DNA from: Pseudovirgaria hyperparasitica
Taxonomy: Eukaryota > Ascomycota > Dothideomycetes > Acrospermales > Acrospermaceae
Direction: 5' to 3'
DNA length: 64,000 nt
Assembly: GCF_010093815.1 (NCBI RefSeq)
Contig: NW_022985571.1
Coordinates: 103,731 to 167,730 of the forward strand
The notes under the pieces were generated by a model that saw only the letters and a program-made list of their open reading frames with translations, had not been told where the DNA came from and made no database searches. Positions 318 through 64,000 of the stretch are shown in pieces (the first letter of the stretch is position 1; every line of letters starts with the position of its first letter). The translations under genes and the position numbers were made by a program.

Positions 318-332
318 AACTAAATAAGTATA
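318..332. repeat. Target-site duplication of L1, left copy
   Basis: AACTAAATAAGTATA at 318-332 is repeated exactly at 5656-5670 on the other side of L1. A 15-bp exact repeat directly next to the (TAA)n tail on one side and the 5' end on the other is the expected mark of target-primed LINE insertion. Confidence 0.9.
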
Positions 333-572
333 ATAATAATAATAATAATAATATTAGTAAACTAGGTAGAGTACCACTCTATAGGCGCATGCCTCCTCTA
401 GTCTAAGCTACTATATAAGAAGAAACCTACGAATAGGAAAAACTCCCTTATATCCATGACTACGCTCTGTCTATCCTCTCGTTCTTTTATATATATAGCC
501 CTAGGGGCTACCCATGGGCCTATAGCCTATGTTATAATGGTTTACCCTTAGGCAGCACGTGTAGGTGCGGAG

Positions 573-605
573 ATTATTAGTTAAGGGCTACCCTTAACTA
601 ATAAT
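573..605. repeat. Perfect palindrome, 3' end of L1
   Basis: Arms ATTATTAGTTAAGGG and its exact reverse complement, separated by the loop CTA. It could form a 15-bp hairpin in RNA. The same palindrome is found near the 5' end of this element. Confidence 0.95.
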
Positions 606-2520
606 CGCGGTTCTCCCGGGGTTCTTCCGACGTATACTAGGGTTCTTCTAGTATATATCGGGCTTCTTCCGGTATATATACGTAGGTCTACTAGAACTAG
701 GGGAGAGGAAGGTGTGTAAGTATCTATCGGGCGACGTCCTTAGAGTACTTATTAAGCTATCGCGTAATGTTAGAGGTCCTTATTATACGGACGAGGGCTT
801 ATCTTAGGGTATAGAGGCTAGAGCACGTCGCGAGGTAGTGGCGTATTATATCTCTCCGGCCGTAGTCCTCGTACTAGAGAGATACATCTAGGACGCCTCT
901 CTAGTAGAGGTAATATAGAAGATCTATAGCGCCTATTTAGGCTTAGAGGAGTATAGATACTTAGGCCTTCGTTAGCCCTTTATACATCTATTTACTTAGT
1001 TCCTTCTAAGGCCCTTAGATCTATTCTAGATACCTATTCTATTAGGAGGCCCACTAGGCTTTAAGTACCTCCCTCTATTTATCCTAGATCTACGACCGTA
1101 TAACGCGGCTAAGCTCCTTAGGGCTCTATTAGCTTAGGACGGCGTCCGGGTTATTTTAAACCTTCTACACGGTCTAGCTCGAGTCCGCCTCTATATAGTA
1201 TTTATATTATACTCGAGTTCGTCCTATAGTAGGGAGGGCCTAGTAATACGCGTGGATACGTGTACGTAGTACGGCGAAGGTATATACCCTATCTCCTCCA
1301 CGTTCTTATACTTATTATTTAGTAAAGTATATAAGTCTCTATATCTAGTAGAAGTCCTATATACTTATTACGTTTATCTCGCGTCGGAGAAGCATTATAT
1401 TAGTAGCTTTATATACGCCGGAGATAAGGCGGAGTATATAGTTTTATATAGACTTAAGCTTTACCCGCTAAGCTTATATAAGGGCCGTATACTAGTACTT
1501 ATATCCGTATATAAAGGCTAGGCGTGCTAGAGAGACGTATAGCTATCTCGCCTTATCCCGGGCTATTCCCTACGTAGATACCGTAATCCAGCATATAGCG
1601 GTTTCTACCTAGAGGGCTCTAGAGATAGCGTGTGCCACCTATGGTCCCTATTTTAGCTTATTATTAATTATAACGCCGAGTGCTCGTATACTCTATACTA
1701 GTAGTTCTATAAAGGCGTCGATTTAGGGGCGACGTACCCTCTCCCTAGTAGCCCATCCTCTATAGCGGTTAATAAAGTGTATAAGCTAGTATTTTTCAGG
1801 TACAAATTTTACTCCGTGGCGCTTTATCTACTATACATATTTCTCGTGGTCTCGTTCGAGTCGTGTATATATTCTACTAGTACTACTATTAACCGTAAGG
1901 AGGTATATATCGTCCACGTATCCGACTATCTCTATATATTCTATTCTCTAAAGGAGGTCTACTATAAAGAAGAGAAAGAGAATCGGGGAGATAGTACTCC
2001 CTTACGGGATGCCGTATACCGTCTCCTTATATTCGCTTCGGTATCCGGGGATATATATTTAAGTAGTCCTTTACGCGAGGAAGGACTATATAAATTATAT
2101 AATCTACTTAGGTATTCGCCTTATCCGGAGGTTATAGATAAGTCTTATATAGTTTACCTTATTAAACGCCCCTACTATATCTAGGGAGAGTAGCGTGACG
2201 ACTCGTTCTTATTTCTATATAGTCTAGATAACCTTAAGGATGTGTTAAATAGCTATAATTAGGGAGCTTCCTATCTTCGCCTTCTAGTTTACTAGGAGAA
2301 GGTCGTGTACCTATACTACTATACTTATCTTCTTAGTAATCATGGCTTCTAGTACCTTGCTAAGGTAGGAGAGGAGGGTAATCGGCCTCTATCCCTTCGG
2401 CGTGTTTAGGCTCTTCTCTAGTTTTAGGAGTATAACCGTGTATATAGTTTAGAAGCTCTATAGGTGGTATCCTATACGGGCGTACGCTCGGAATATATAG
2501 CCTATAATTAGTAAGGTCGC

Positions 2521-2703
2521 CTATATGGTCCTCTTAAGGCATCGATTTAGAATTCTATCTAGCCCGGGCGCTTTATCGTTCGGGAGTGTCTTAATAGCGC
2601 TAAGTATATTATCGTCCGTGATTTCCCTAGGGATACTTACGGCTTCCGGGTATTCCGTGCCGTTAATATCTAATAGGTCTACGGGTTCTAGAAGAGGGAA
2701 CAT
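2521..2703 (-). pseudogene. LINE L1 ORF2 reverse-transcriptase fragment
   Basis: A 60-residue open stretch on the minus strand with the motif NDKAPGLDRILNRCLKR, the block just upstream of the catalytic core in LINE reverse transcriptases. It is the longest unbroken sense piece of L1 ORF2. It fixes the family and orientation of L1. Confidence 0.85.
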
Positions 2704-5361
2704 AACCTCTCGTAGAATCTCTATTTTCTTAAGGCTCGTGGAGTATATCTTTTCTTAATATATAAGGGGGGGTATAAGTAGTGTAGGTGTCGGGGAGGCG
2801 GTACTTTTGGCCTATTTTACTATATACTATAGTCTAGTAGTATTATGTGTATATCTATCCGTGACTATACGCTACTATTTATATTACTCGTTACGGAGGA
2901 CCTTATCTCGTTATCTTCTCGTCTCTCTCTATTTATCCTACGCTTTAGGTATATAGTTATAGTATACGCGTGTGTATAATCTCTAGACTTCTCGCCTATA
3001 CTCTTATACTTAAGGTATGCTTTTCGGGTCTAGGGGTCTATATATTCGGTACGGCACGTATTTATCTCTTACTCCCTAGTACGCCTATAGGAGTATGTTC
3101 ACGGCCTAGTCGATGGCCGGGCCATTAGATACGTCGACTATAGACGGGTCTAGAATCGTCGATTCTAGGTCCTTTAGATACTTTTACTAGTTAGTATCCT
3201 TCCATAGCTATCGCCCTCGTTAGTCTTAAGAGGTGGATACGTCTATTATAGTCTCTATATATTCGTGGTTAGAGTCTATCTATATAAGGCTTAGGCGGTA
3301 GTATTAAGTTCTATTATAAATATGTCTAGTGGCTAGGGTAAGGTCGAGTATAGATCCGCCCTTATCTTATTTATATTTTCGCTAGATAATCTATTCTACT
3401 AGTATAAGAAGGTATAGGAAGCCGTGGTATTAGGTGCGTAGTTCTCTAGCTCGAAGCTCTTCGCGGGTGACGGTTAGTCTACCCCACTAGCTATAATAGA
3501 GGTTAAAGTCTCCTAGGAGGATATATTATCCTAGCTCGGTAGTACCCTTAAGTATATTATCCGCCTAAAGCGATCGGTTCTAATTATATATATTATATAT
3601 GTGGAGGGGTCCGATATTCGTCTAGAGGTATAGTATTATCTAGAGGTTATCCCGTTTAGTATACGACCATAATAAGAGTAGAATAGACTTATAAACATAG
3701 AAGAGGACTCTCCTCTCCGGTCCTAGGGGGTATATTATATAATATTCTAGGTGTGTTATTAGTTTATTCGTCTGGTAGTATTTATATAGCTCCTATATAG
3801 CGAGTATTATAGCTCCGGTCTCCTCGAGGAGTATCGCCTAGTTCTTATATTTATACTATACATTTATCTATATAATTAGGAGTGTATCTTAGTCTCTTAT
3901 TAGGTGCTAGAGAATATATATGCCTATATATTTATTCCTCTAAGACGCGACTATCCTCGTACGGCGGCGGCCTTAGTAATTCCTTAGGGCCGTTCTATTA
4001 TTAGCTTTCTCGGGACGGTTTACTATTCCTAACCGCTTTCTCGTAAGGAGGTAGTCTATAGTAGTAGTATTATAGTAAAGAGAGGAACGGTAGTAGGTCG
4101 CATCGTTTATAGCTACCTTACTCCCTTTATCCGGATTAAGTAGATATATTTAGTAACCTATTTACGTTTCGCGTACGTAGTCGACCACGACGGGTACTTA
4201 CCGTCGTAGTTAGAGTACTTCGCCGTATCCCTATCCCTCTAGCCCTCTCCTCGTGTTCTATAGGGGTACTCCTAGGTACTATATTCTTATTAATACTACC
4301 TATACCTAGTCTTTTAGGAGTACCGCTATGCCGTGTACCCGTATCTCTAATAGTTAAAGCACTATATTATCGCCTATACTCTATCCTATAGTTCCGCTAT
4401 AAGAAGCTCCCCTTCCGCTAGGAATCCCTCTTACGTAATTTAATACGCGAGGGCGGGGTCCTTAAGCTCTACTATTATAGTAGAGTATGCCTTCGATCTA
4501 GTTTTAATCCCTTATATATTCTTCTACCATACTCTTACGATCTTAATTCCTAGGTATTTTCGCTTATTTAACTATTCCATCCGCGTAATATCCTCTTCTC
4601 CGATAACCTATCCGCTTATAGATATAGAGTATACCTATATTAGGTATATAGCCGCCCTAATAGAGGCGCCTAGAAAGATACTACTAATCGCGTTCGGATC
4701 GCGCGAGATAGTCTACTACGCGATATTCGTTATCGTGGTAAGTACTACTCCTTCTAGCGTGAGTTTAGCGGCGATAACGTTTAACTATATTCCCTTTTAT
4801 TTATTAATCTTACTTACTATATCCTTTAGGGATACTTACTAGACCTATACTAGGGTGTCCTTATTCTAGATTATAACGTGTATACTATACGCCGCGTCGC
4901 CGGTCTAGGGGGCCCGTAGTATAGCCTCCGGTATTACTACTATTTATACCTATATACTAGGGCGCTTACCTTAAGTAAGTTCCTCCTAGATTCTACGTAG
5001 GCTAGCCTCTATTCGGTCGAGCCTACCCTCCGGTCCTCCTAGTTATATCTTCTTCTCCTCCTCTATAATTCCCTTTAGGTTCCGGATAAGGTTCTAGAAT
5101 ATATATAGAAGGGTCTTCTAGCCCTCTCCGGCTTCCTTCTCTATACGTGCTACCTAGTAGTTAATGCGATCTAGGAGGGTTTCCCCTCTCGGGGTCCTCT
5201 TTATTCTATCTATCTATAGCGGCGTGCGCCTTTAGGTGTGTTCTACGTTTTAGATAGGTGTATAGTTACCCTTAGTAATATCGCTATATAGCCTTTTCTA
5301 TTATACCGGTGGGGGTATATCCGGTATATACCGGGGTATATCGGTGCCTAAGGCCGCTATA

Positions 5362-5394
5362 TTTATTAGTTAAGGGCTACCCTTAACTAATAAA
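5362..5394. repeat. Perfect palindrome, 5' end of L1
   Basis: Arms TTTATTAGTTAAGGG and its exact reverse complement around loop CTA. The core is identical to the 3' palindrome of the same element. Confidence 0.95.
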
Positions 5395-5655
5395 AGGGGG
5401 TCGGCGTATCGGCGTTCTAGTAGCGTGGTCTGTGTCTCTATCTCCGTGAGGATTTTAAGAGGGTATATATATATCTTTACACGGCGATAACGTCTTAGTT
5501 TCGACGCTATACGTACGTGCGTGTAGTAGTAGTTAGTATACTCGGTATACTCTATCGATTAAGGTATATATCTTGCTATATTACCCCGAATGGACCAAGT
5601 TGGCCTCTTGGGGATGTAAAAGAAGTTTAAATATTAATAATAAAGTAAACTTCTC

Positions 5656-11887: not shown

Positions 11888-11901
11888 TATTAATATTTAT
11901 A
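11888..11901. repeat. Target-site duplication of L2, left copy
   Basis: TATTAATATTTATA, repeated exactly at 17195-17208. Confidence 0.85.
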
Positions 11902-12142
11902 ATAATAATAATAATAATAATATTATATAACTAGGTAGAGTAGTACTCTATAGGCCTATGCCTTCTCTAGTCTAAGCCACTATATAAGAAGAAACCCTAT
12001 AGGGAAAAACTTCCTTATATCTATAACTATATCTCGTTAAACCTCTATTTCGTCTTAAGTATATAGCTATAGGGTACGCCTATTAGTCTATAGCCTATAT
12101 TACTATTATTTTACCCTTAGGTAGTATATATAGGTGCAGAGG

Positions 12143-12173
12143 TTATTAGTTAAGGGCTGCCCTTAACTAATAA
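12143..12173. repeat. Palindrome, 3' end of L2
   Basis: TTATTAGTTAAGGG, loop CTG, exact reverse complement. Confidence 0.95.
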
Positions 12174-15100
12174 TCGGGGTTCTCCTAGGGTTCTTCTAGT
12201 ATATATCGGGTTACTACCGGCGTATACCGGGTCTCTTCTAGTATATATTTCTAGGTCTACTAGTACTAGAGGAGTAGTAGATATATAAGTATCTATCGGG
12301 AGACGTTCTTAGGGTACTTATTAAGCTATTATATAATATCTAAAGTCTTCGTAACGTAGATAAGCTATTACCGTTATATATAGAGGTTAGGGTATATAGC
12401 TAGATAGTAGCGTATTATACCTCTCTAGCCGTACGCCTTATACTATAGGGAGATATTAGGAACGTCTCTCTTATAGATATAGTATAGAAGTTCTATAGCG
12501 CCCGTTTAGGCTTAGATAAGTATAGATACTTAGGCTTTCGTTAGCCCTTTATATATCTATTTACTTAGTTCCTTCTATAGCCCTTAAATCTACTCTAGAT
12601 ACCTATTCTACTAGGAGGTCTAATAGGTATAGAGTGCCTCTTTCTACTTATCTTAAGTCCACGACCGTATATTTTTTATAAGTTCTTAAAGACTCTACCG
12701 GTCTAGAAGAGCGTCCGGGTTATCTCGGACTTCTTATACTACTTAGCTAGAGTTAGCTTCTATTAAGCACCTATACCGTATTTAATTCCGGCCTATATAT
12801 AGAAGTACACGGTAATATATACTAATTCGTGCACGTAGCGCGGCGAAAGTATATTCTATATTTCCTATATATTCCTATACTTATTATTTAGTAAAGTATA
12901 CCACCCTCTATATCTAGTAGAAGTTATATATACTTATAACGTCTATCTCGCGTCGTAGTAGTACTATATTAGTAGCTTTATATACGCCTAATATAAGACG
13001 GAGTATACGGTTCTATATGGATTCGAGCTTTATTCGCCTAGTCTATATAAGGGCCGTGTACTAGTACTCGTATCCGTATATAAAGGCGGGTCGTACTATA
13101 GATATATATAGCTAGCGTGCCTTATCCCGGGCGGTTCTCTATATAGAGACTATAATCCGTTATATAGCGGCTTCTATCTAGAGGGCCCTAGAGACGGTAT
13201 ATACTACTTATAGTCCCTATTTAAGCTTACTATCTAGTATAACTCCGAGCGCGTGTATACTTTATACTAGTAGTTCGTTAAATATATTAATTCGGGGGCG
13301 TTATTTACCTTCTCTAGTTATCTATTTCCCTTAATAATTAATAAAGTATATAAGCTAGTATTTCTCCGGGGCGAACTTTACTCTATAGCGTTTTACCTAC
13401 TAGAGGTACCTCTTATAGTTCTATTCTAGTTGTCTACACGTTCGGTTAGTATTATTATTAATAGCTAGGAGATATATATTATCGGCGTATCCGACTACCT
13501 CTATATACTTTATTTCTTAAAGAAGGTCTACTGTAAAGAAGAGGAATAGAATCGGAGAGATAGTACTCCCTTATAGGATACCGTATACCGTCTCTTTATA
13601 TTCGCTCTAGTACCTAGAGATATATATCTAAGTTATTCTTTCTATAAGGAATAACTATATAAAGCGTGTAATCTATTCTAGTATTCGTCTTATCCGGAGG
13701 TTATAAATAAGTCTTATATAGTTTACCTTATTAAACGCTCCGGCTATATTAGTAAGAGAGAGGAGCGATACTACCCGTCCCTATTTCTATACGGCCTAGA
13801 CGACTTTAATAATATATTAGATAGCTATTATTAGGGAGCTATCTACCTTTATCTTCTAGTTCGGAGGGAGAAGATTATATTTCTATACCGTGGTACTTAT
13901 CTTCTTCGCTATCGTAGCCTCTAGTATCTTACCTAGGTAGGAGAGAAGGGTAATTAGTCTCTATCCCTTTAGAGAGTTAGAGCTCTTTTCTAGTTTCGGG
14001 AGTATAATAGTATAGATAACTTAGAAGCTCTAGGGGTGGTACCCCTATATAACGTATACTTAGAATATATAAGTAATAAGCGGTAGGGTCGCTTTTATAG
14101 TACTTTTTAGGCATCGATTTAGAATTCTATCTGGTCTAGGTACTTTATTATTTAGAAGTATCTTAATAATATTAAGTATATCCTCCTCCGTAACTTCTTC
14201 GGGGATATCTACTATATATAGATATTTAGTACCGTAAACGTCTAATAGGTCTACTAGTTCCGGGAGAGGGAATATGGCCTTCTATAGGGCCTTAGTTTTC
14301 TTAAGGCCCGTAGAGTATATTCTCCTCTAATATATTAGGGGAGGTATAAGTAGCGGGGGTATCGGAGTATCTACGCCCTTAGCCTATTTTACTATATACT
14401 ATAGCCCTATTACGTGTCGTATCTATTAACTAGTAATTATATACTACTATTTACGCCTTTTATTACGGAGGACTTTATCGCGTTATTATATTACTTCCTT
14501 CTATTCTTTCTATGACTCGGGTATTCTTATATAGTATACGCGTCTATATAGCCTTCGGACGTCTTATCTACTTTCCTATACTTAAGGAATCCCCTTTACT
14601 TCCGGGGGCCGGTATATTCGGTATAGTATATATTTATTTCTTATATTCTAGTATATTTATAGGAGTGTCTATACGGCCTAGTCTATGGCTAGGTCGTTAG
14701 ATATATCGACTATAGAGGGATCTAGAATCGCCGATTCTAGGTCCTTTAGGTACTTTTCCTAGTCGGTGTCCTTCTATATCTATCGTCCCCGTTATTTATT
14801 TAGGGTATATATATTTATTATAGTTTCTATGTATTCGTGGTCGGAATCCGTCTATACCTAGCCTAGGCGGTAGTATTAGATCTAGTAACTAATATACTCC
14901 GTGGTAAAGGTAAGGTTAAGCGTAGACCCGTCTTCGTCCTATTTATGTTTTTTCTATATAACTTATTCTATAGGTGTGAGTAGGTATAGGAAGTTATAGT
15001 AGCGGGTGTGTAGTTCCCTTACTCTAAGTTCTTCCCTAACTACGGCTAGGTCTCTCTACTATTAGTAGTAGAGGTTAAAGTCTTCTAGAAGGATATATTA

Positions 15101-16922
15101 CCCTAGTTCCGTAGTACCCTCGAGTATCTTATCTAGTATAAGTATATATTATTAGTTATATATATTATATATATATAGGGGGCCTATATCTATTTATAGG
15201 TGTAGTATTATTCTAAGGTTATCGCGCTCGGTATACGACTATAATAAGAGTAGTATTAACCTATAAATATAGAAGAGGACTCGTCTTTCTAGTCCTAGAG
15301 GGTGTATAGTATAGTATCCGGGGTGTATAGTTAGTTTACTCGTCTAGTAGTATTTATAGGGTTCCTAGATAGTAAGTATTATAGCCCTAGTCTCTTTGAG
15401 AAGCGTCGCCTAGTTCTCTCTTTTATATTATATATTTATCTATATAATTCGGAGTATATTCTAGTCCCTTATTAGGTACTAGAGAGTATATATACCTATA
15501 TACTTATTCCTTAGAGGCGCGACTATCCTCGCGCGGTAGCGGCTTTAACTATACCTTTTAGTTATTCTATTATCTTTAGAATAGTCTACTATCCTACCTA
15601 ACTACCTTCTAGAGAGGAGGTTAGGGGTATTATAAAGGAAGGGCTCGTGGTAGGTCTTATATTCTATAACTATCTTACGCCTCTCGCTTTTATCGTGCGA
15701 ATATATTCTATAACCTATTTATATTTTATATATATTAATGACTATAACGGGTATTTCCCGTCGTAGTTTAAATACTATACTATATCTCTATTTCTTAGTC
15801 TATCTCCTTGCGGTTCGTGAGGGCACTTCTAGATAGTATAGTCCCTACGGTACTATCCGTACTTAGTCTTCTATAAGTACCTTTATATAGTATATCTATA
15901 CCCTTAATAGTTAAAGCACTATATTATTATCTATACTCTATCCTATAGCTCGGCTATAAGGAGCTCTCCTTCTATTAGGAATCCCTTCTATATAATATAT
16001 TATATAAGGGCGGGGTCTCGGAGCTCTATAATTATAGTAGAGTGTTTTTTCGCCGTCGTCTTAATCGTCTATAGATTCTTCTACTACGCTTTTATAATCT
16101 TAATCCCTAGATATTTTCGCGTGTTAGATTATTCTATATACATAATATTCTCTACTCTAATAGCCTATCCCTATACGGGTACTATATATACTATAATTAG
16201 ATATATAGCTACCCTAATAGACGCGCCGGGGAAGATACTACCTATTACGTTTAGATCTCGCGAGATGTTTTACTATATAGTATTTATTATAGTAGTAAGT
16301 ACTACCCTACCTAGTATAACTTTAGTAGCTATAATACTTAACTATATTCCTTTCTATTTATTAATCTTATTTATAATTTCCTTTAGAGATATCTATTAGA
16401 CCTATACTAGCATGTTCTTATCCTAGATTATAATACGTATACTATATACTCTATCTATAGTCCTAGTAGTTCTTAGTATAGTAGCTCTAGATATTACTAT
16501 AATCTAAGCCTACGTATTAGGGCGCTTACCTTAGAATAGCTCTTCCTAGATTCTCCGTAGGCTAGCTTCTATTTAGTCGAGCCTACTACTAGATTCCTCT
16601 TATAGTAACTTCCTTTCTTTCTCTATAATTTCTCTTAGATTCTAGATAAGGTCCCGGAATATATAAAGGAGGGTCTTCTTTCCCTCCTCGGCGTCTCTCT
16701 CTATATATATTATCTAGTATTTAATTTTATCTAGGAGGGTCTCCCCTCTTAGGGTCCCCTTAGTCTAGGTTATCTATAGTACTTCGCACCCTTAGTTAGT
16801 TTCTATATTTTAGATAGGTATCTAGCTATCTATATTAATATTACTATATAGCCGTTTCTACCGTACTAGTAGGGGTATATCTAGCATCTACTAGGGTATT
16901 ACGATACCTAAGGCCGCTATGG

Positions 16923-16953
16923 TTATTAGTTAAGGGTAGCCCTTAACTAATAA
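16923..16953. repeat. Palindrome, 5' end of L2
   Basis: TTATTAGTTAAGGG, loop TAG, exact reverse complement. Confidence 0.95.
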
Positions 16954-17194
16954 AAGGGGGTTAGCATATTAGTATTTATTAGATATAGTCTATACTTATA
17001 TTATTAAAGAGTCTTTAAGTATATATATATAGTATCTCTATATATTAGTATCGTTATATATTATATACTATATATATATACGTGTGTCGGAGGTTATTAT
17101 ACTCGGTATACTCTATTATTTAATATATATAAATTACTATTTTACCCTAAATTAACTAGTTTAGTCTGTTAGGGTATAAGAAGTTTTTAAATAA

Positions 17195-17208
17195 TATTAA
17201 TATTTATA
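17195..17208. repeat. Target-site duplication of L2, right copy
   Basis: TATTAATATTTATA, exact match to 11888-11901. Confidence 0.85.
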
Positions 17209-17214
17209 GATAGA

Positions 17215-17430
17215 TAATTTATACTCTAGTCTCTAAGTAGATCTTAAGTATATATATATATATATATATATATAGTATATCTATACTTTAATAGTATTAT
17301 ATATTTTATACTATATATATATACTAGTAGTTAGTATACTTAGTATAATCTATTAATTAAAATAAAAAAATAGTATATTACTCTAAAATAACTAAGTTAG
17401 TCTCTTAGAGAGTATAACGAAGTTTTCTTT
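17215..17430 (-). mobile_element. LINE 5'-terminal remnant
   Basis: About 215 bp resembling the 5' end of the LINE, minus strand, heavily degraded, with a (TA)n run in the middle. It lies just outside L2 and is an older, separate copy. Confidence 0.65.
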
Positions 17431-20075: not shown

Positions 20076-21430
20076 TAATATTAATTTAACTTAAGAAGTA
20101 GAATATTATTATTCTTCTAGATATAGATAGTATCTAGAGTATATAGAATAAGTAAGATTATATAATATCTCTTTACTAGTCTTATCTATTCTAGCTCTAT
20201 TATATAATAATTAGAATAAGATAAAGCTAAAGTCTATAATAATAAGAGATATTTCTCTTTTTATAGTCTCTATAGCTATTAGCTAATAGAAGTCTCTACT
20301 TTTCTTCTAGAATATTTAAGAATATATACTATAATAGATATAGATAGATTAGTCTAGTCTAGAATAGTATATTTTACTACTCTTTATATACTACTAATAG
20401 ATATTATAAAAGATCTACTATTTCTTAAACTAAGTTATATAGAAAGAAAGTATTAGTTATTTCTTTTCTAATAAAGTAATTATTTATATCTCTTATTCTA
20501 TTTTTATAAGATAGCTTATATATATAGACTCTAATTAGTTCTCTAAGATAATAGAATAGAGTTATATAATACTTATAACTAATTCTTTAATAACTATATC
20601 TACTAATCTAATACTAAAATAGATCTATAAAGTATATATAATAAACCTTTCTTATAAAGTATAGCTTATCTCTAAAGTAGTCTATTATATAGAGTATTCT
20701 AGCTTTCTAATAGATAAATATATTTAGAATACTTAAATAGAGTTAAATAGAGTTATAATAAGTATTAATAGAGTATAAATTATAACTTACTAATAGATAA
20801 GTAAAGTAGTAATTATATTATAGTAAGTTAAATATTAATTACTATAGAACTATTACTAGAGATTAAAGTTAAGAAATCTATATAGTTCTACTAAGGTATC
20901 TTAATTAGAATACTTATTATAAGTACTCTATATACTACTTAGAATACTATTATTCTATTTCTAATTATTTAGTATACTACTTAGAATATCTATTCTAAGT
21001 ATCTATAATTAGTTCTCTTTATTAATATCTAATATTATTCTAGATTATTATCTAAGACTATCTATAGTATTATAGATATCTTATATATATATTATACTAT
21101 CTCTTATACTACTTATACTAATAACTATATATTCTTTTTTAGTCTTTATTTATAATCTATTATAGTATAAGAAAAGCTAAATATTAAAGTATTAGTAATT
21201 AAGATTTTATAATATATAAAATAAATAAGAAAATATTCTTCTTAAGTATAAAGATAGCTATAGAACTATAGCTAGATATATATATAGAGCTATAGATATA
21301 GTCTTCTATAATAGTAGATTTTAGCTCTATATAGCTACTTTTAATCTATTTTAGTTCTTTTAAATCTTTTAAATATATATTTATTAGTTTCTTATTAGTT
21401 TAATTCTTAGCTTAATAATATTATATATAT
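20076..21430. repeat. RIP-degraded repeat R2, first part
   Basis: AT-rich, no genes. Three relations were found. 20076-20247 resembles the 201-bp insertion at 48670-48870, which looks like a solo LTR. 20625-21130 resembles 6010-6520. 21290-21430 plus the continuation after 23220 resembles 31310-31990. It is interrupted by the M-LINE insertion at 21431. It is probably a decayed LTR-type element, thoroughly broken. Confidence 0.5.
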
Positions 21431-22621
21431 AGGCTACGAAGCCTTACGAACCGCGTCCACGTCGTCGTAGCTAGGCAATGCCTCTATAGAGGTAGTAAGA
21501 GGTTTAGAGCGGCGTTAATGGCGACCTAGTCGTCGCTAGATAGATAGTTAAAGAGTTTTCGCGGAGCGTCTACCTTACTAAACCACGCTAATATAACCTA
21601 GCTAGGGAAGTATATACTTCTATCCTATCCCTAATTAACGTGTTAAGAGAAGTTCACGAGAATAAAGGGATAAGAAAACCATCTAACGCGCTACTACTAT
21701 ATCGAAAGTAGGCCTAAATCTATCTTACTAACTAGGTAGAGGAAGCGGAGGTCCTAGTAGCGTAATAGGATACCTTAAGGCTTAAACGGCTCTAGAAACG
21801 TAAGGAACACGTCGAGGGTAACTAAGAAACTACTAGTAGAAGAACTTATTAAAGCTAACTCTTCTATAGTATTAAACTACGTTTATTAAGCCGCCTAGTA
21901 TAACTACTAGTAGCACGACTCTATTAAGACCTTTCGCTTAATATAAGATACTACTTTACTACTAATAGGTAGAGTAGCTCCTACGTATAAGAGATATTAT
22001 AGTCTACTATAGGAGGTAGAATACTAGAGTATATAGATAATAGTATATAGATATAGGTAGGAGGTAGCTATAGAGACCCTTTAAGAGTAGTAGAAATAAG
22101 TCGGGTCAGTAGGAAGAGAATACCTAAGTCGCCTAGGCGTATATACGTAAGGGATTTAGAGGATACTCTCCTATAAGACATGGTCGGCCTATTATAGAGA
22201 GATCCTTATAGATAACGCGAAACTAAAAAGTAGTAATACTTAAAGGCGGGGCGTGGTATATAGTAGTAACTACTAGCTCTAAGGACCTTACCCCTTTAAT
22301 AGGCTCTAACCCTTAGTATATCTAGAAGTAGATAGAATTATATCCTAGCTAGAGAGACTACTATATAGCCCGAGAGAATGGATGCGCGTATTAATTTATA
22401 AAGAGATAGAATATATTACCTATAAGGCACGTACGCTAGTATTATAAGTTTAAGGAGTAAACCTTATAGTTACCTAGCTAGGAGAGGCTTCGGTTACCTC
22501 TCCTAGTAGAGCTAGAGGTATAAGCCTAGAGGGGATAAGATAAGGCGAAAATAGAAGTAGAGTCTAATGGTATAGGGCACGTCGAACCTATAGAAGTTAT
22601 CTAACTCTGAACTAGAGGCCT
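21431..22621 (+). mobile_element. Module M, copy 1, fused to LINE 3' end
   Basis: A 1191-bp module, present a second time at 62152-63342 with the same length and the same first (AGGCTACGAAGCCTT) and last (GAACTAGAGGCCT) bases. It is much less RIP-degraded than its surroundings and still GC-rich in places. At 22622 it passes directly into the C-terminal part of LINE ORF2, so M heads a 5'-truncated LINE insertion. From ATG at 21518 to the end, one plus-strand frame (~368 codons) reads like protein with only TAA/TAG interruptions, but TGA is scarce everywhere here. No domain was recognised. It could be a captured cellular or transposon transcript. Confidence 0.8.
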
Positions 22622-23184
22622 ATACTACATCTATAAGAGAGGCGTTCCCGACACCTCCCTATGGTATAAGGCGTACGGCCGGAGAGGTATAATATACCAC
22701 TATCTAGCTATATACCCTAACCTCTATATATAATAGTAATAGCTTATCTATATTATAAAGACTTTAGATATTATACGATAGCTTAATAAGTACCCTAAGG
22801 ACGTCTCCCGATAGATACTTATATATCTACTACTTCTCTAGTACTAGTAGACCTAGAAATATATATCGGAAGAGACCCGGTATACGCCGGTAGTAACCTA
22901 ATATATACTAGAAGAACCCCGGGAGAACCCTAATTATTAGTTAAGGGTAGCCCTTAACTAATAACCTCCGTACCTATACGTGCTACCTAAGGGTAAAATA
23001 ATAGTAATATAGACTATAGGCTAATAGGCGTACCCTATAGCTATATACTTAAGACGAAATAGAGGTTTAACGAGATATAGTTATAGATATAAGAAAGTTT
23101 TTCCCTATAGGGTTTCTTCTTATATAGTAGCTTAGACTAGAGAAGGTATAGGTCTATAGAGTACTACTCTACCTAGTTATATAA

Positions 23185-23218
<34 letters not shown>

Positions 23219-50660: not shown

Positions 50661-50918
50661 TACTATTATTAATATTAAAGAGAAAAAACTTCTTATACCC
50701 TAACGGACTAAACTAGTTAATTCGGGGTAAAACAGCGATTTACATACATCAAATGATAGAGCATACCGAGTATAATAACCTCCGACATACGTGCGTACGT
50801 ATAGCGTATAATACACGACGATACTAACGTATAGAGACACTATATATATACGCTTAAAGACTCTTCGATAACACGAGCATAGACTATATCTAATAAATAC
50901 CGACACGCCGACCCCCTT

Positions 50919-50949
50919 TTATTAGTTAAGGGCTACCCTTAACTAATAA
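50919..50949. repeat. Palindrome, 5' UTR of L4
   Basis: TTATTAGTTAAGGG, loop CTA, exact reverse complement. Confidence 0.95.
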
Positions 50950-51069
50950 TTATAGCGGCCTTAGGCACCGACGTACCTCGGCTTCCACTAGGTATACCCC
51001 TAATACTAGTACGGTAGAAACGGCTATATAGCGGCATATTCTAGGACGATTAAACCCCCGTCTAATAAA

Positions 51070-52300
51070 CGACGAATAACTAAGGGCGTATAATACTATA
51101 GATAATAGAGACGGAGGGGACCCCGCCCGGGGAGACCCTTCTAGATAAGATTAACTACTAGATAGCACGTATAGAGGGGGAAGTCGAGAAGGGAGAAACG
51201 GCCCTCCTTAGTATCTTCCGGAACCTTATCTAGAATATTAGAGAGCTTACCATAGGAGTAAAACAGGCGCCGGAACTAGACCCGGAATCTAGACTAGATT
51301 ATATAGAGGCTAGCCTATAGAGGATCTAGGAGGGCCTTATCTAGGGAAAACGCCCTAGTACGTGGGCATAGATCGCCGCACCTATAAGCGGAACAGCCAT
51401 ATTAGCTAAAATACTAAGGGCACCTACGGACGGGGCATATAGTATACGAGTTACTATCTAGAATAAAGAAGTACTCATATAAGTCTAGTAAGCGTCCCTA
51501 AAGGACATTATAAATAAGATTAACGAATAGAAAGGGATATAGTTAAATATAGTGGCCGCCAAACTCACCCTAGAAGGTATAGTACTAACTACTACTACTA
51601 ACACGGCCTAGTAGACTATCTTGCGCGACCCGAACGCGATTAACGACATCTTCCCTAGCGTGTCCGTCCACGTAACCACGTACCCGATATAGATATATAC
51701 TATCTCTATCTAAGGACACGTTATTAGAGAAGACGATATCGAGCGAATAGAGTAATCTAATAAACCGAAGTACCCTAGGATTAAGATCGCGAAGGCGTAG
51801 TAGAAGAACGTCTAGGGGATTAAGATAAAATTAAAAAAGTACTCTACTATAATAGTAGAGCTTAGGGACCCCGCTCTCGCCTATAGAATAACGTAGGAGG
51901 GCTTCCTAGCCGAAGGAGAGCTACTTACGGCGGAACCATAGAATAGGGCATAGGTAATGACGCAATGCTTCAACTATTAAGAATATAGACATACTAGGCA
52001 GAGGTGCTCTTAGAAGACCGCCTATAGGTAGTATAAATAGGGCTATAATACTAAGGAATGCCCTTATAAGACGCAGAGCGACGAGACGCGAGATAGGGAC
52101 ATCGCTAAGTACTCTAACTACGACGGGAAACATCTATCCTAGTCGGTAACGTACACGAAACGTAAGTAGGTCGTAGAATATATTAACGCGATAAAGACAA
52201 GAGGAGTAAGATAGATATACTAAGCCATAAGGCCCTCGCTACCCTCGCCGCTATCCCTAACTTTACTTATAAATCTAGTAACTACCCCCCGAAGAGGAGA
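51070..52300 (+). pseudogene. LINE L4 ORF1, zinc-knuckle protein
   Basis: Gag-like RNA-binding protein of the LINE. The C-terminal part reads QCFNY..EYRHTRQRC and later GYNTKECPYK, two CCHC-type knuckles in which some codons are RIP-changed. Boundaries are approximate. The minus-strand open frame at 51921-52133 is its antisense shadow. Confidence 0.7.
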
Positions 52301-52439
52301 GGATAACACGTAATAGTATACTATATAGAGAAAGATAGGCCGACCCCGGGGTATACTCAAAGCTGCTACCGCGCGAGAATAATCACGCCTTAGCGCTACT
52401 AATATATAGACTTAAACTTTCTCTAGCACCTAATGAGGG

Positions 52440-55400
52440 CATAACATATACTTATTATTATATAGGCGAACGTATAATATAAACGAGAAAACCAAGCGAC
52501 GCTCCTAGAAGAGATAGAAGCCATAATAATAGCTATCTAGGAACCATATAAACACTACTAAACCAATAAGCTAATAACACACCTAGAATACTATACCATC
52601 CACCCTACGGGCCCGGATAGGAGAGTTATGTTTTATATATATAAGTCGATCCCGCTCTTAGAATGGTCTTATACCGAACGTGATAACCTCCGGATAATAC
52701 TATATCTCTAGATAAGTATAGGGCCTCTCTATATCTATAATATCTATAATTAATAGCGATCGCTTACGCTAGATAATATACTCGAGGGCACCACGACGCC
52801 GGGATAACACATCCTCCTAGGCGACTTTAATCTCTACTATAGATGGTAGGGAGGCCTAGCCGTCGCGAGAGAAGAACTTAGAGTAAGGGAACTATACACA
52901 CGGTACCACGACTTCCTATACCTCCTTATACCCGTAGGGTAGATCACCTAGAGGAAACATAAATAGGACGAGAACGGGTCTACGCTCGACCTTACCCTCG
53001 CCACCGAGTACATTAGCCATAGAGTATAGTACTACCGCCCAAGCCGGATATAGACGGACTCCGACCACGAATATATAGAAACCGTAATAGACGTCTCTAC
53101 TCTTAATAAATAATATAGAAAATAGCTATAGAAGGATACTAATTAGGATAAATACCTAGAGGACCTAGAATTAGTAATTCTAGACCCCTCTATAGTCGAC
53201 GTATCCAACGGCCTAGCCATAGATAAGGCCGTGTAAGTCCTCCTTTAAGTATACTAAGCCATGAGAGATAAACACGTACTATACTAAATATATAGATCCC
53301 TAGAAGCGAGGGGTATACCTTAAATACGAGAGTATAGAAGAGACGCCCGTAGACTATATATATATATATACTATATCTAGACGACCGAGGCCTAGGAAGA
53401 GTAGAAGGAAGTAGTATAATATCGTAATAGGGCCCTCCGTAATAAATAATAAAAATAATAGCGTATGATTACTAATAAACACACACGGTAAGCCGTAGGG
53501 CTATAGTGTATAGTAAAGTAGGCTAAGGGTATAGACGCGCCGACACCGCCGCTACTAATACCTCCCCTAATATACTAAGAGAGAATATACTCTATAAGCC
53601 CGGAGAAGACGGAGATCTTATATAAAGTTATGTTCCCCCTCCCGGAGCTAGTAGACCTATTAGATATTAATAATACTAAATATCTAGATATAATCGATAT
53701 CCCCTAAGAGGTTACCGAGGAGAATATACTCGACGCTATTAAAGTACTCCCGAATAATAAGGCACCCGGACTAGATAGGATACTAAATAGATGCCTTAAA
53801 CGCACTATACTAGCTACCCTACCGCTTATTAGTTATATATTTTAAGTATATATTAAGAACGGATACCACCCCTAAAGCTTCCGGGCCGCCTATACTATTA
53901 TACTTCTAAAACTAGGGAAGAACCCTAGCTCCCCAAAAGGATAGAGGCTAATCGCCCTCCTCTTCTATCTTAGGAAGATACTAGAGGCTACGATTACAAA
54001 GAAGATAAGCGCCGTAGTATAGGAATATAACCTCCTCCTAGTAAACTAGAAGGCGAAGACTAGAAGCTCTCTAATTACCGCTATCTAATATATCCTCGAA
54101 GTCGTCTAGACCGTATAGAAGTAGGGACGTATAGTAACGCTACTCTCCCTTAACATGGCCGGCGCATTTAATAAAGTAAACCACACGAGACTTATCTATA
54201 ACTTACGGAAGAGGCGTATACCCGTGTAGATTACGCGGTTTATATAGTCCTTCCTCGCTAAAAGAGTTACCTAGATATACATCTCTAGATATCGAAGTAA
54301 GTACGAGAAGACGGCTTACGGCATCCTATAAGGAAGTACTATCTCTCTAATCCTCTTCCTCTTCTTTACTATAGACCTTCTCTAGAGAATATAATATATA
54401 GAGGTAGTAGGATACGTAGACGATACATACCTTCTAGCCATTAATAATAATACTAGCCAAATATATAGACGACTCGAATAAGACCATAGAAGATATATCT
54501 AATAGGCAAAGCGCTACGGAGCAAAGTTCGCCCCTAAAAAGTACTAACTTATATACTTTATTAACCGCCGTAGGAAATGGGCTACTAGGGAAGGTAAGCG
54601 ACGCCCTAGAATAGACGCCTTCGACGAACCGCCGACATAAAGTATACGCGTACTTAGCGTTATAATCGATAATAAGCTTAAATAGGGACCATAGGTAGTA
54701 TATACCGTTTCTAGGGCCCTCTAGATAGAAGCTACTATATAACGGATTATAGCCTCCACGTAGAGAACCGCCCGGGATAAGGTACGCTAGCTATATATAT
54801 CTATAGTACGACCCGCCTTCACGTACGGACACGAGTGCTAGTATACGGCCCTTATATAGACTAGGCGAATAAAGCTCGAATCTATATAGAACCGTATACT
54901 CCGTCTTATATTAGGCGTATATAAAGCTACTAATATAGTACTACTACGACGCGAGATAGACGTTATAAGTATATATAACTTCTACTAGATATAGAGGGTA
55001 GTATACTTTACTAAATAATAAGCATAGGAACGTATAGAAAATATAGAATATACCTTCGCCGCGCTACGCGTGCGAGTTAGCGTATACTACTAAGTACTCT
55101 TATATATAGGCCGGACTCGACTATGGTATAAGTGCCCGATAGAAATAGACTTAAACTAAGTAGTATAAGAGATTAAGAATAACCTAGATACCCTTCTAGA
55201 CTAATAGAGTCTTTAAGAGCTCGGATAAAGTATACGGTTATAGATCTAAGATAAGTAGAAAGAGACACTCCGGGCCTAGTGGGCCTCCTAGTAGAATAGA
55301 TACCTAGAGTAGATCCGAGGACCATAGAAGGAGCTAAGTAAATAGATATATAAAGGGCTTATAAAGGCCTAGATATCTATACTTCTCTAAGCCCGAACGG

Positions 55401-55600
55401 GCGCTATAGAACTTCTATACTACCTCTATAAGAGAGGTATCCCTAACGTGTCTCTATAGTATAAGGCGTGCGGCCGGAGAGGTATAATACGCTACTATCT
55501 TATAATATACCCCGATCTTCACACGTAAAGGCAGAAGCTTATCCACACGATAAGAACCTCTAATATTATATGATAGCTTAATAAGTACCCTAAGGATATC
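52440..55600 (+). pseudogene. LINE L4 ORF2, endonuclease and reverse transcriptase
   Basis: Starts near QANVQYKRENQATLLEEIEA, the usual opening of AP-endonuclease domains in LINEs. GDFN and SDHE endonuclease motifs and the KAPGLDR and YVDD reverse-transcriptase motifs follow in order. After the RT comes RLILGVYKAT..VLLRRE, then RTGAIELLYYLYKRGIPN and a Cys motif, the standard fungal LINE C terminus. Many glutamine and tryptophan codons have become stops. Confidence 0.85.
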
Positions 55601-55728
55601 TCCTAATAGATACTTATATATCTACTACTCCTCTAGTACTAGTAGACCTAGAAATATATACTAGAAGAGACCCGGTATACGCTAGTAGTAACCTAATATA
55701 TACTGGAAGAACCCCGGGAGAACCCTAA

Positions 55729-55759
55729 TTATTAGTTAAGGGTAGCCCTTAACTAATAA
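55729..55759. repeat. Palindrome, 3' UTR of L4
   Basis: TTATTAGTTAAGGG, loop TAG, exact reverse complement; the loop differs from that of the 5' palindrome of the same copy. Confidence 0.95.
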
Positions 55760-55998
55760 CCTCCGTACCTATACGTACTACCTAAGGGTAAAATAATAGT
55801 AATATAGGCTATAGGCTAATAGGCGTACTCTATAGCTATATACTTAAGACGAAATAGAGGTTTAACGAGATATAGTTATAGATATAAGGAAGTTTTTCCC
55901 TATAGGGTTTCTTCTTATATAGTGGCTTAGACTAGAGGAGGCATAGGCCTATAGAGTACTACTCTATCTAGTTATATAATATTATTATTATTATTATT

Positions 55999-56011
55999 AT
56001 ACTTTAGTTAT
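55999..56011. repeat. Target-site duplication of L4, right copy
   Basis: ATACTTTAGTTAT, exact match to 50648-50660. Confidence 0.85.
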
Positions 56012-61240: not shown

Positions 61241-62151
61241 ATAGATCTATAATCTATATTACTATTATTTTATTCTTAGATAATATATATAGAGTATAGA
61301 GATTATTAGCTAAGGGTTACCCTTAGCTAATAATTAGAGTTCTTCTAGAGTTCTTCTAGTATATACTAGAGTCTATCTAGTATATATCTAGTTTCTTCTA
61401 GTATATATATTAAGATCTACTAGTACTAAGAGAGTAGAAGATATATAAGTATTTACTAGATAATTTTCTTAAAGTACTTATTTAGCTAATATATAATATT
61501 AGAGGTTCTTATTATAGAATAAGTATTTATCTTTATATATAGAGATCTAGATATATTATAAGATAGTATTATATTATATATCTCTAATTATATACTTTAT
61601 ACTATAGAGATATATCTAGAATATCTCTCTAGTATAGAAAGTATAAAAGTTCTATAGCTTCTATTTAGGCTTAGAGAAGAATAGATATTTAGACTTTTAT
61701 AAGCTCTTTATATATCTATTTACTTAGTTTCTTCTATAGTTCTTAAATCTACTCTAAATATCTATTCTATTAGAATATCTAATAGACTTAAAGAGCTTCT
61801 TTCTACTTATTCTAGATCTATAATTATATAGTCTATATAAGTTTTTAAGGGTTCTACTAGTATAAGAAGGTATCTAGATTATCTTTAATCTCTTATATAA
61901 TCTAACTTAAGTATATCTCTATTAGATACTTATATTATATTTAAATCTAGTCTATATATAGAAGTACTTAATAGTAGATACTAACTTATATATATAGTAT
62001 AGTAAAAGTATATTCTATATATTCTATATATTTCTATACTTATTATTTAATAAAGTATATTACCCTCTATATCTAGTAGAAGTTCTATATATTTATTATA
62101 TTTATCTTATATTATAGTAGTACTATATTAGTAGCTTTATATATACTAGAT
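61241..62151 (-). mobile_element. LINE L5, continuation
   Basis: 3' UTR and C-terminal ORF2 of the LINE, minus strand, strongly degraded. The palindrome is at 61302-61334. It is cut at 62151 by the M-headed insertion. Confidence 0.85.
61302..61334. repeat. Palindrome with compensatory change
   Basis: Arms TTATTAGCTAAGGG and CCCTTAGCTAATAA around loop TTA. Compared with all other copies (GTTAAGGG/CCCTTAAC), both arms changed together from a T-A pair to a C-G pair, so pairing is kept. Confidence 0.9.
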
Positions 62152-63342
62152 AGGCTACGAAGCCTTATAAACCGCGTCCACGTTATCGTAGCTAGGCAAT
62201 GCCTCTATAGAGGTAGTAAGAGATTCGGAGCGGCGTTAATAGTAACCTAGTCGTCGCTAGATAGATGGTTAAAGAGTTTTCGCGGAGCGTCTACCTTACT
62301 AAACCACGCTAATATAACCTAGCTAGGGAAGTATATACTTCTATTCTATCCCTAATAAACGCGTTAAGAGAAGTTCACGAGAATAAAGGGATAAGAAAAC
62401 CATCTAACGCGCTACTACTATGTCGAAAGTAGGCCTAAATCTATTTTACTAACTAGGTAGAGGAAGCGGAGATTCTAGTAGCGTGATAGGATACCTTAAG
62501 GCTTAAACGGCTCTAGGAACGTAAGGAACACGTCGAGGGTAACTAAGAAACTACTACTAGAAGAACTTATTAAAGCTAACTCTTCTATAGTATTAAACTA
62601 CGTTTATTAAGCTATCTAGTACGACTACTAGTAGTATAACTCTATTAAGACCTTTCGCTCGATACGAGATACTACTTTACTACTAATAGGTAGAGTAGCT
62701 CCCGCGTACGAGAGATGTTATAGTCTACTATAGAAGGTGGGATACTAGAGTATATAGATAATAGTATATAGATATAGATAGGAGGCAGCTATAGGGACCC
62801 TTTAAGAGTAGTAGAAATAAGTCGGGTTAGTAGGAAGAGAATACCTAAGTCGCCTAGGCGTATATACGTAAGGGATTTAGAGGATACTCTCCTATAAGAT
62901 ATAGTTAGCCTATTATAGAGAGATCCTTATAGGTAACACGAAACTAAAAAGTAGTAATACTTAAAGGCGGGGCGTGGTATATAGTAGTAACTACTAGCTC
63001 TAAGGACCTTACCTCTTTAATAGGCTCTAACCCTTAATATATCTAGAAGTAGATAGAATTATATTCTAGCTAGAGAGACTACTATATAGCCTAAGAGAAC
63101 GGATATATATATTAATTTATAAAGAGATAGAACGTATCGCCTATAAGGCATATACGCTAGTATTATAAGTTTAAGGAGTAAACCTTATAGTTACCTAGCT
63201 AGGAGAGGCTTCGGTTACCTCTCCTAGTAGAGCCGGAGGTATAAGCCTAGAGGGAATAAGATAAGGCGAAAACAGGAGTAGGGCCTAATGGTATAGGGCA
63301 CGTCGAACCTATAGGAGTTATCTAACTCCGAACTAGAGGCCT
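62152..63342 (+). mobile_element. Module M, copy 2, fused to LINE 5' UTR
   Basis: 1191 bp, the same length and ends as copy 1 at 21431-22621, and nearly identical apart from scattered transitions. At 63343 it joins the LINE about 40 bp from that element's 5' end (AACGGACCAAACTGG, matching L4 at 50702). It was inserted in L5 (opposite strand), again as the 5' head of a LINE insertion. Confidence 0.85.
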
Positions 63343-64000
63343 AACGGACCAAACTGGTTAATTCGGGGTAAAACAGCGATTTACATACATTAAACAATAG
63401 AGTACACCGAGTATAACAACCTCTAACACACGTGCGTACATGTAGCGTATAATACACGATAATACCGACGTATAGAGATACTATATATATACGCTCGAAG
63501 ACTCTTTAATAATATAAGTATAGACTATATCTAATAAACGCTAATACGCTAACCCCCTTTTATTAGTTAAGGGCTACCCTTAACTAATAACTATAGCGGC
63601 CTTAGGTATCGTAATACCCCGGTATACGCCGGATATACCCCTACTAGTATAGTAGAAACAGCTATATAGCGATATTAATATAGATAGCTAGATATCTATC
63701 TAAAATATAGGAACTAACTAAGGGTGCGAAGCGCTATAGATAACCTAGACTAAGGGGACCCTAAGAGAGAAGACCCTCCTAGATAAAATTAAATACTAGA
63801 TAATATATATAGAGAGGGACGCCGAGGAGGGAAAGAAGACCCTCCTTTATATATTCTGAGACCTTATCCGGAATCTAAGAGAAATTATAGAGGAAGAAAG
63901 GAAGTCGTTACGAGAGGAACCTAGTAGTAGACTTAACTAAATAGAAGCTAGTCTACGGAGAATCTAGAAAGAGCTATTCTAAGGTAAGCGCCCTAACACG
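63343..64000 (+). mobile_element. LINE L6, 5' part, runs off the window
   Basis: Collinear with L4 from 50702: 5' UTR, palindrome at about 63559-63590, and the start of ORF1. It is less degraded than L3 and L5. Its 3' end lies beyond the window. Confidence 0.88.
63559..63590. repeat. Palindrome, 5' UTR of L6
   Basis: TTATTAGTTAAGGG, loop CTA, exact reverse complement. Confidence 0.95.

Follow-up and report, generated by a model that had tools for sequence, protein, structure and literature searches.

A non-coding sequence module of about 1.2 kb, here termed M, was found joined in sense to the 5' side of variably truncated LINE copies in Pseudovirgaria hyperparasitica, and its first base is also the first base of a predicted HDV-like ribozyme. 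Two copies lie in the window, the whole 64,000-nucleotide stretch that was analysed (assembly GCF_010093815.1, contig NW_022985571.1, positions 103,731 to 167,730 of the forward strand). Sequence comparison establishes M as a separate module with constant ends, joined to LINEs at many junctions in single insertions and headed by a putative ribozyme fold in which one lineage shows compensatory changes. From this we infer cleavage by the ribozyme, template switching as the joining step and a parasitic status. M would be a separate non-coding RNA whose own HDV-like ribozyme is predicted to form its 5' end. During target-primed reverse transcription of LINE RNA, the enzyme would halt inside the LINE, mostly after copying a C, and pass over to an M RNA at its 3' end (...GGAGGC), the switch presumably being aided by one base pair between the terminal G of the cDNA and the terminal C of M. 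It would then copy M as far as the ribozyme-made 5' end; that the unit is inserted with a target duplication is shown by the duplications themselves. Itself non-coding, M would in this way be carried by at least three LINE subfamilies, behaving as a parasitic RNA and not as a component of the LINE. Taken as a whole, this model of a ribozyme-headed, parasitic M RNA joined to LINE by template switch is considered probable.

The two window copies, 21431-22621 and 62152-63342, are both 1191 bp long and align at 93.5% identity with zero gaps, which confirms the claim of the initial annotation that one sequence occurs twice with the same start, end and length. Bases 21431 and 62152 were assigned to the target duplications, leaving M proper as given in Table 1. 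A search of the 35.03-Mb, 59-contig assembly returned 37 matches with a window copy as query and 39 with a RIP-free query; after split matches were merged, these amount to at least 37 copies genome-wide, a recurrence far past chance. The 5' end is shared by 33 of the 37, which start at the same base, G1, give or take RIP. Three others (L037, L042 and L027b, the second M copy in L027) start inside M, and L036 borders unread bases. The 3' end is kept in 34 of the 37 copies; it is gone in L031 and L041, and L032, whose M-LINE junction was not resolvable, stands outside the set of 34. It reads ...GAACTGGAGGC in L029 and L030, the last bases being GGAGGC, and differs by 1-2 nt between copies. All 34 copies with an M 3' end continue directly into LINE, in sense. 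The initial annotation had called for a search for M copies without LINE and for a single-copy M gene; none of the 34 lacks a LINE, and the genome-wide searches found no solo M gene in the assembly and, among the coordinates of the matches, no tandem M. One 29-base pattern from a conserved block of M gave 0 matches in IMG/VR. By eye, M in L031 breaks off near base 973, where it meets a sequence resembling a DNA-transposon transposase gene.

Table 1. Features of the M-LINE units and reference LINE copies in the window (positions are those of the window).
Feature	Position	Strand	Remarks
LINE L1 without M	323..5601	-	Junction-mapping reference; ends approximate
LINE L2 without M	11890..17218	-	Ends approximate
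Left target duplication, copy A	21419..21431	.	13 bp, AT-rich; partner 23206-23218
M copy A	21432..22619	+	1188 nt, from ribozyme G1 (predicted) to GAGGC; A-type; RIP-mutated
Predicted HDV-like ribozyme region, copy A	21432..21506	+	T at catalytic C, so predicted inactive; without an Rfam HDV match
LINE joined to M copy A	22620..23205	+	5'-truncated 3' part, from ~4812 of L2; (ATT)n tail
Right target duplication, copy A	23206..23218	.	13 bp
LINE L4 without M	50699..56000	+	Ends approximate
Left target duplication, copy B	62137..62152	.	16 bp; partner outside the window, C23:172353-172368
M copy B	62153..63340	+	A-type; RIP-mutated
Predicted HDV-like ribozyme region, copy B	62153..62227	+	T at catalytic C
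LINE joined to M copy B	63341..64000	+	Nearly full-length, from ~127 in L2 coordinates; continues past the window

The LINE partner belongs to the family of the window copies L1, L2 and L4, with a more diverged relative in L029 and L042. Comparison within the window bore out the earlier statement that L1, L2 and L4 lack M and that M lies outside the standard element. The LINE part that follows copy A corresponds to L4 from 55415 onward, and the one that follows copy B, which is LINE 5' sequence, to L4 from 50699 onward, in agreement to within 2-3 bases with the joins first reported (55417 and 50702). Junctions were tabulated for 33 of the 34 copies, L035 being omitted as a segmental duplicate of L034; those of L009, L022 and L027 were taken from a separate mapping pass, and those of L030, L037 and L042 were extrapolated across 6-16 bases. 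The spread of junctions, another point singled out for checking, proved wide: the 33 occupy 28 different LINE positions between ~127 and ~5090 of ~5400, and no one junction is common to all M-LINE copies.

Target duplications were sought in 24 units between the bases preceding M and the sequence past the (ATT)n tail of the LINE. Exact duplications of 11-19 bp adjoining M were found in 19 of the 24 (the longest takes in part of the tail), and 19 of the 21 units whose tail was located reach 11 bp. When the left flank of one unit was set against the right flank of another as a control, leaving out the pair L018/L023, 1 of 418 pairs showed a match of at least 11 bp. The duplication at L030 contains one mismatch (by eye), no duplication was seen at L009 and L029, and L011 and L020, counted among the 24, were not testable. 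The right end of the insertion starting at 62152, left to be located by the initial annotation, lies at ~C23:172352, past the window, so that copy B forms a 6.5 kb unit with an exact 16-bp duplication, TTATATATACTAGATA, at both sides. As the duplications surround M and LINE together, each M-LINE unit represents a single insertion. With 28 sites among 33 junctions and target duplications around whole units, the original suggestion that a constant M 3' end on variable LINE positions fits template switching is supported.

Two further units, L018 (C23:202589) and L023 (C23:298580), lie at the same spot in copies of one repeat, with ~735 bp of left flank in common, near-identical duplications and 90.8% identity over the aligned stretch including M. 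Their LINE junctions differ (5027 versus 3149) and their 5' joins are slightly different; they may be independent insertions at one site, or a duplication followed by change. By eye, what appears to be the L030 target site without an insert lies in the left flank of L031.

The LINE base opposite the last C of M is C in 23 of 33 junctions and at 19 of the 28 distinct sites, whereas C makes up 0.17-0.21 of the reference LINEs. At a content of 0.21 this excess has p = 2.5e-9 for the 33 junctions and 1.2e-7 for the 28 sites; for the distinct sites, p would be 4e-5 were the C content 0.30. Ten of the 33 junctions have a non-C LINE base, and in six of these M ends at GG, without its own last C, the next base being a LINE T or A with zero overlap. 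At L021, scored as C, M ends two bases early, and L042, scored non-C via the L1 alignment, would be C if the L4 alignment were used. The CT-type microhomology initially proposed for both window joins was upheld as a single C at copy B, where the LINE has C, and failed at copy A, where the LINE has T.

Constant M 3' ends and variable LINE starts would be expected equally if M RNA and LINE RNA fragments were ligated first and the fused RNA then reverse-transcribed, a route that is possible but on the unlikely side. The candidate ligase for such a fusion in fungi would be tRNA ligase. Ligation through RtcB has been proposed for U6-L1 chimeras (PMC13174262, in excerpt, citing Moldovan 2019), and an M 3' end made by a ribozyme, with the 2',3'-cyclic phosphate that HDV ribozymes leave (PMC5640933, in excerpt), would suit such a ligase; the six GG junctions without overlap also agree with it. 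The LINE-side C excess, however, directly fits one-base priming, and ligation would need a nuclease cutting LINE RNA before C; the shifts of 1-2 nt in the M 3' end count against it as well.

Template switching, the preferred joining step, has a counterpart in the template jumps of R2, in which the LINE enzyme switches to other RNAs (PMC3414825, in excerpt). The same source, as excerpted, describes the R2/R1 hybrid SIDEs of Drosophila, in which a 5' part with an HDV-like ribozyme, derived from R2, stands ahead of the 3' end of another LINE, as in M-LINE, and the fusion spreads as a unit. By analogy, a non-autonomous element or a lost LINE might have M as its 5' module, the ribozyme freeing M-LINE from read-through RNA and the chimeras moving as units. 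Five junction sites, each common to two copies, are in keeping with this, but the 28 distinct positions among 33 junctions point to mostly first-generation, independent joins rather than descendants. Furthermore, two of the five sites (4912 and 4824) are each hit by one A and one B copy, the two M types described below, which argues for recurrent joins; the other three are shared by two B copies. Propagation as units is therefore judged unlikely.

The prediction that M begins with an HDV-like ribozyme, cutting just before G1, rests on position, descriptor and covariation, the Rfam scores being low. At lax Rfam thresholds the RIP-free copy L030 gave four matches, of which HDV_ribozyme alone lay at an M end; it covered the whole model from the first M base with 26.1 bits, below the RF00094 gathering score of 50, at a genome-wide E of 1.61. 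Such an E would be worthless alone, and the weight comes from position rather than score, since the one HDV_ribozyme match in the whole genome at E<=10 (best 86 of 675 candidates scored) is at the M start. L029 gave 24.5 bits at the M start, also below 50, and two of the four RIP-light copies scanned against Rfam (L031 and L039) were without an HDV match at E<=5. RIP-mutated window copy A had no Rfam HDV match at E<=10, and no Rfam family reached its gathering score in the window. A descriptor comprising P1, P2, P3, L3, the GGGCAA stretch and a C in J4/2 was written after L030 had been seen, and its result consequently speaks to specificity, not discovery. Run over the window and the collected loci (579,570 bases, a figure that includes both strands and the overlaps between loci), it matched at M base 1 and nowhere else, in L029, L030, L031, L039 and L012 (same as L006). 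The M minus strand gave no ribozyme match in L030 (Rfam) or in the descriptor scan. As a DNA query, the 90-nt ribozyme region hit 33 places, all of them M; 32 of these are M starts, and the remaining one lies in L037, a truncated copy.

For the structure, 31 of the 33 copies starting at G1 were aligned, L032 and L035 being omitted. The predicted nested double pseudoknot (P1, P2, P3, P1.1 and P4) has 24 pairs, and 92.5% of the 744 cells can pair, against 22-50% when the partner is slid by 1-3 columns; the second P1.1 pair is present in 8 of 31 rows. Both sides have changed at eight pairs in 13 cells, an outcome reached in 0 of 500 shuffles, while the number of further pair types was not beyond shuffles (matched in 74 of 500). 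Because RIP can alter both arms of a stem in which TG faces CA, little is proved by most of the double changes across the 31 rows. Clean compensatory changes stem from one lineage, that of the RIP-light L031, in which 11 paired positions are changed relative to L030 and all 24 pairs are retained; P2 shows a double transversion from C-G to A-U, and P4 is rebuilt. The bases that we take to form the active site (L3 UCC..CG, GGGCAA and the catalytic C) are all present in L029, L030, L031 and L039. At the catalytic position 10 of 31 rows have C and 21 have T, both window copies among the latter; copies with this C-to-T change should have been inactivated by RIP. The first G of M reads A in 6 of the 31 aligned copies, and as the preceding base is T in five of these (by eye), the G-to-A change fits RIP of TG. 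If the prediction is true, cleavage at base 1 would provide a concrete cause of the fixed 5' end of M. The last bases of M, GGAGGC (e.g. L029, L030), are complementary to the P4 5' strand (GCCUCC/U), maybe by chance.

Most M copies are RIP-mutated. Those of the window are depleted in CA/TG with TA in excess, the signature of RIP, which points to a filamentous ascomycete as the probable host, and their (CA+TG)/(AC+GT) ratio is 0.14, versus 1.02-1.03 in RIP-free L029 and L030 and 0.92 in L031. As RIP makes transitions, lineages were compared by transversions only, in a 15-copy subset of 30 aligned copies. Seven B-type copies differ pairwise by 0-2 transversions over 1,205 sites and four A-type copies by 0-2 over 1,187 sites, so each type looks derived from one near-uniform source. 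Between A and B there are 40-42 transversions over ~1,180 sites (44-45 where L029 is compared) plus indels. L030 lies 1-2 transversions from B, and L029 lies 6 from L030 and 7-8 from B. Relative to B-like copies, L031 shows 19-22 transversions over 971 sites and L032 105-109 over ~1,096 sites, giving at least four M lineages (A, B, L031 and L032). B-type M is joined to LINEs of the L1, L2 and L4 types and A-type M to those of the L1 and L2 types; the history of M is therefore not that of any single LINE type.

As far as tested, M is non-coding. A protein-coding M was rejected, the reading frames being short, the long ones not common to L029 and L030, and three M frames staying without a Pfam match below E 0.2. 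Comparison of L030 with L029, L031 and window copy A also showed indels of 1, 2, 4, 6 and 11 bases, often not multiples of three, the lost 3' end of L031 aside. A viroid-like circular RNA was likewise rejected, the fold being unexceptional and the predicted ribozyme being found in one polarity only. Fold stability gave z of -2.1 to -2.3 for L030 (both strands) and -0.7 to -1.1 for the L029 plus strand (60 shuffles each), with the same pair fraction as the shuffles and no rod-like shape.

The near-uniformity of 0-2 transversions within each type would also be expected of one master gene, as if M were an ordinary abundant host non-coding RNA caught by chance by the LINE machinery. WEIRD RNA, from a comparable chimera of Magnaporthe considered below, is abundant, and its capture was suggested by its discoverers (PMC2104539, in excerpt). 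Against this stand the failure to find a solo M gene in the assembly, the divergence between A and B, which would seem fast for a housekeeping RNA, and the fact that 5' HDV-like ribozymes are known from retroelements (PMC3414825 and PMC4035085, both in excerpt). A chance-captured host RNA is consequently thought improbable. The initial annotation had offered an abundant transcript and a LINE parasite side by side; the parasite is favoured by inference, and the abundant host RNA is kept as a rival.

A quite doubtful variant is that M is a ribozyme-processed RNA parasite without a DNA master, of which LINE reverse transcription leaves only DNA fossils. One HDV-like ribozyme would then cut unit-length RNAs from concatemers or circles, making both constant ends, and the M 3' end would arise without further parts, but the lack of tandem M among the matches and of a rod-like fold speaks against it. 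If true, this would explain the absence of a known solo gene for M and for WEIRD alike. That M is a DNA transposon or a standard LINE part is, despite its constant length and ends, so improbable as to be ruled out by the spread of junctions, duplications that bracket M plus LINE rather than M alone, the absence of terminal inverted repeats, the M-free L1, L2 and L4 of the window and the finding that none of the 34 copies lies outside LINE.

The architecture itself is already known, and M-LINE appears to be a MINE-like chimera family whose new element is a module headed by a predicted HDV-like ribozyme. MINE, a chimeric retroelement of Magnaporthe grisea/oryzae, consists of WEIRD (GenBank EF585235-EF585237) and MGL (PMC2104539, in excerpt, here and throughout this paragraph). 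As in M-LINE, a non-coding 5' module of ~1.1-1.2 kb, full length and with constant ends, stands on a 5'-truncated LINE at many sites, with target duplications, no solo module and junction sites in common between copies. In Table 3 of that report, 16 of the 18 representative rows have a C ahead of the switch point, as counted for this analysis, versus 23 of 33 junctions here, and the MINE authors saw no microhomology. Single-base pairing between cDNA and acceptor would explain the C bias both here and in Magnaporthe, if WEIRD too ends in C. M differs in its predicted ribozyme, none being mentioned for WEIRD in the excerpt, and in that most M copies are RIP-mutated and fall into at least four lineages. 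M shows chance-level similarity to one 20-nt MINE primer, the sequence with which it was compared. The open-access literature yielded no report of a ribozyme in WEIRD, nor of an HDV-like ribozyme heading fungal LINE chimeras; HDV variants as such have been reported, 230 of them in 26 fungal species (PMC5640933, in excerpt).

The mammalian U6-LINE-1 chimeras with which M was first compared are a sound parallel, having a small RNA in sense on a truncated LINE with target duplications (PMC13174262, in excerpt), and MINE is a closer precedent that had not been named. U6, however, is a known host gene, whereas M carries a predicted ribozyme and no source gene for it was found in the assembly. HDV-like ribozymes also occur in retroelements as Pr77 of the trypanosomatid L1Tc/ingi elements, where they belong to the LINE and its relatives (PMC4035085, in excerpt), unlike the predicted ribozyme of M, which belongs to an independent module. 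WEIRD-type modules have been abundant, non-coding, gene-less orphans on LINEs (PMC2104539, in excerpt). A ribozyme at M base 1, if true, would shift such a module from captured housekeeping RNA to candidate LINE parasite, and it raises for Magnaporthe the question of whether WEIRD starts with the same fold. The proposed switch also bears on how a LINE enzyme may choose its acceptor RNA, namely through one base pair at the acceptor 3' end.

On the LINE side, the best 40 of 409 genome candidates for the first 352 bases of the L1 5' region match it nearly full length, and copy B's is the only mapped M junction within this far-5' region. With at least 40 such 5' regions and one M junction so far 5', most of them cannot carry M. 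No ribozyme match was found at the LINE 5' end on window L1, a weak negative given that this copy is RIP-mutated and RIP-mutated M fails likewise; the L046 stretch, chosen for an un-RIPped LINE 5' end, had no LINE in it. Pfam returned nothing for five short LINE pieces or for a 200-aa intact piece. The LINE C-terminal piece is stop-free in 3 of the best 150 of 238 candidates, at C26:232222-232821 (L029), C39:16712-16945 (L044) and C46:23011-23352 (L042), two of them short; those in L029 and L042 are M-LINE chimeras. An un-RIPped L2-type LINE at L044:809 skips from 4586 to 4858, which may reflect an internal deletion or a LINE-to-LINE switch.
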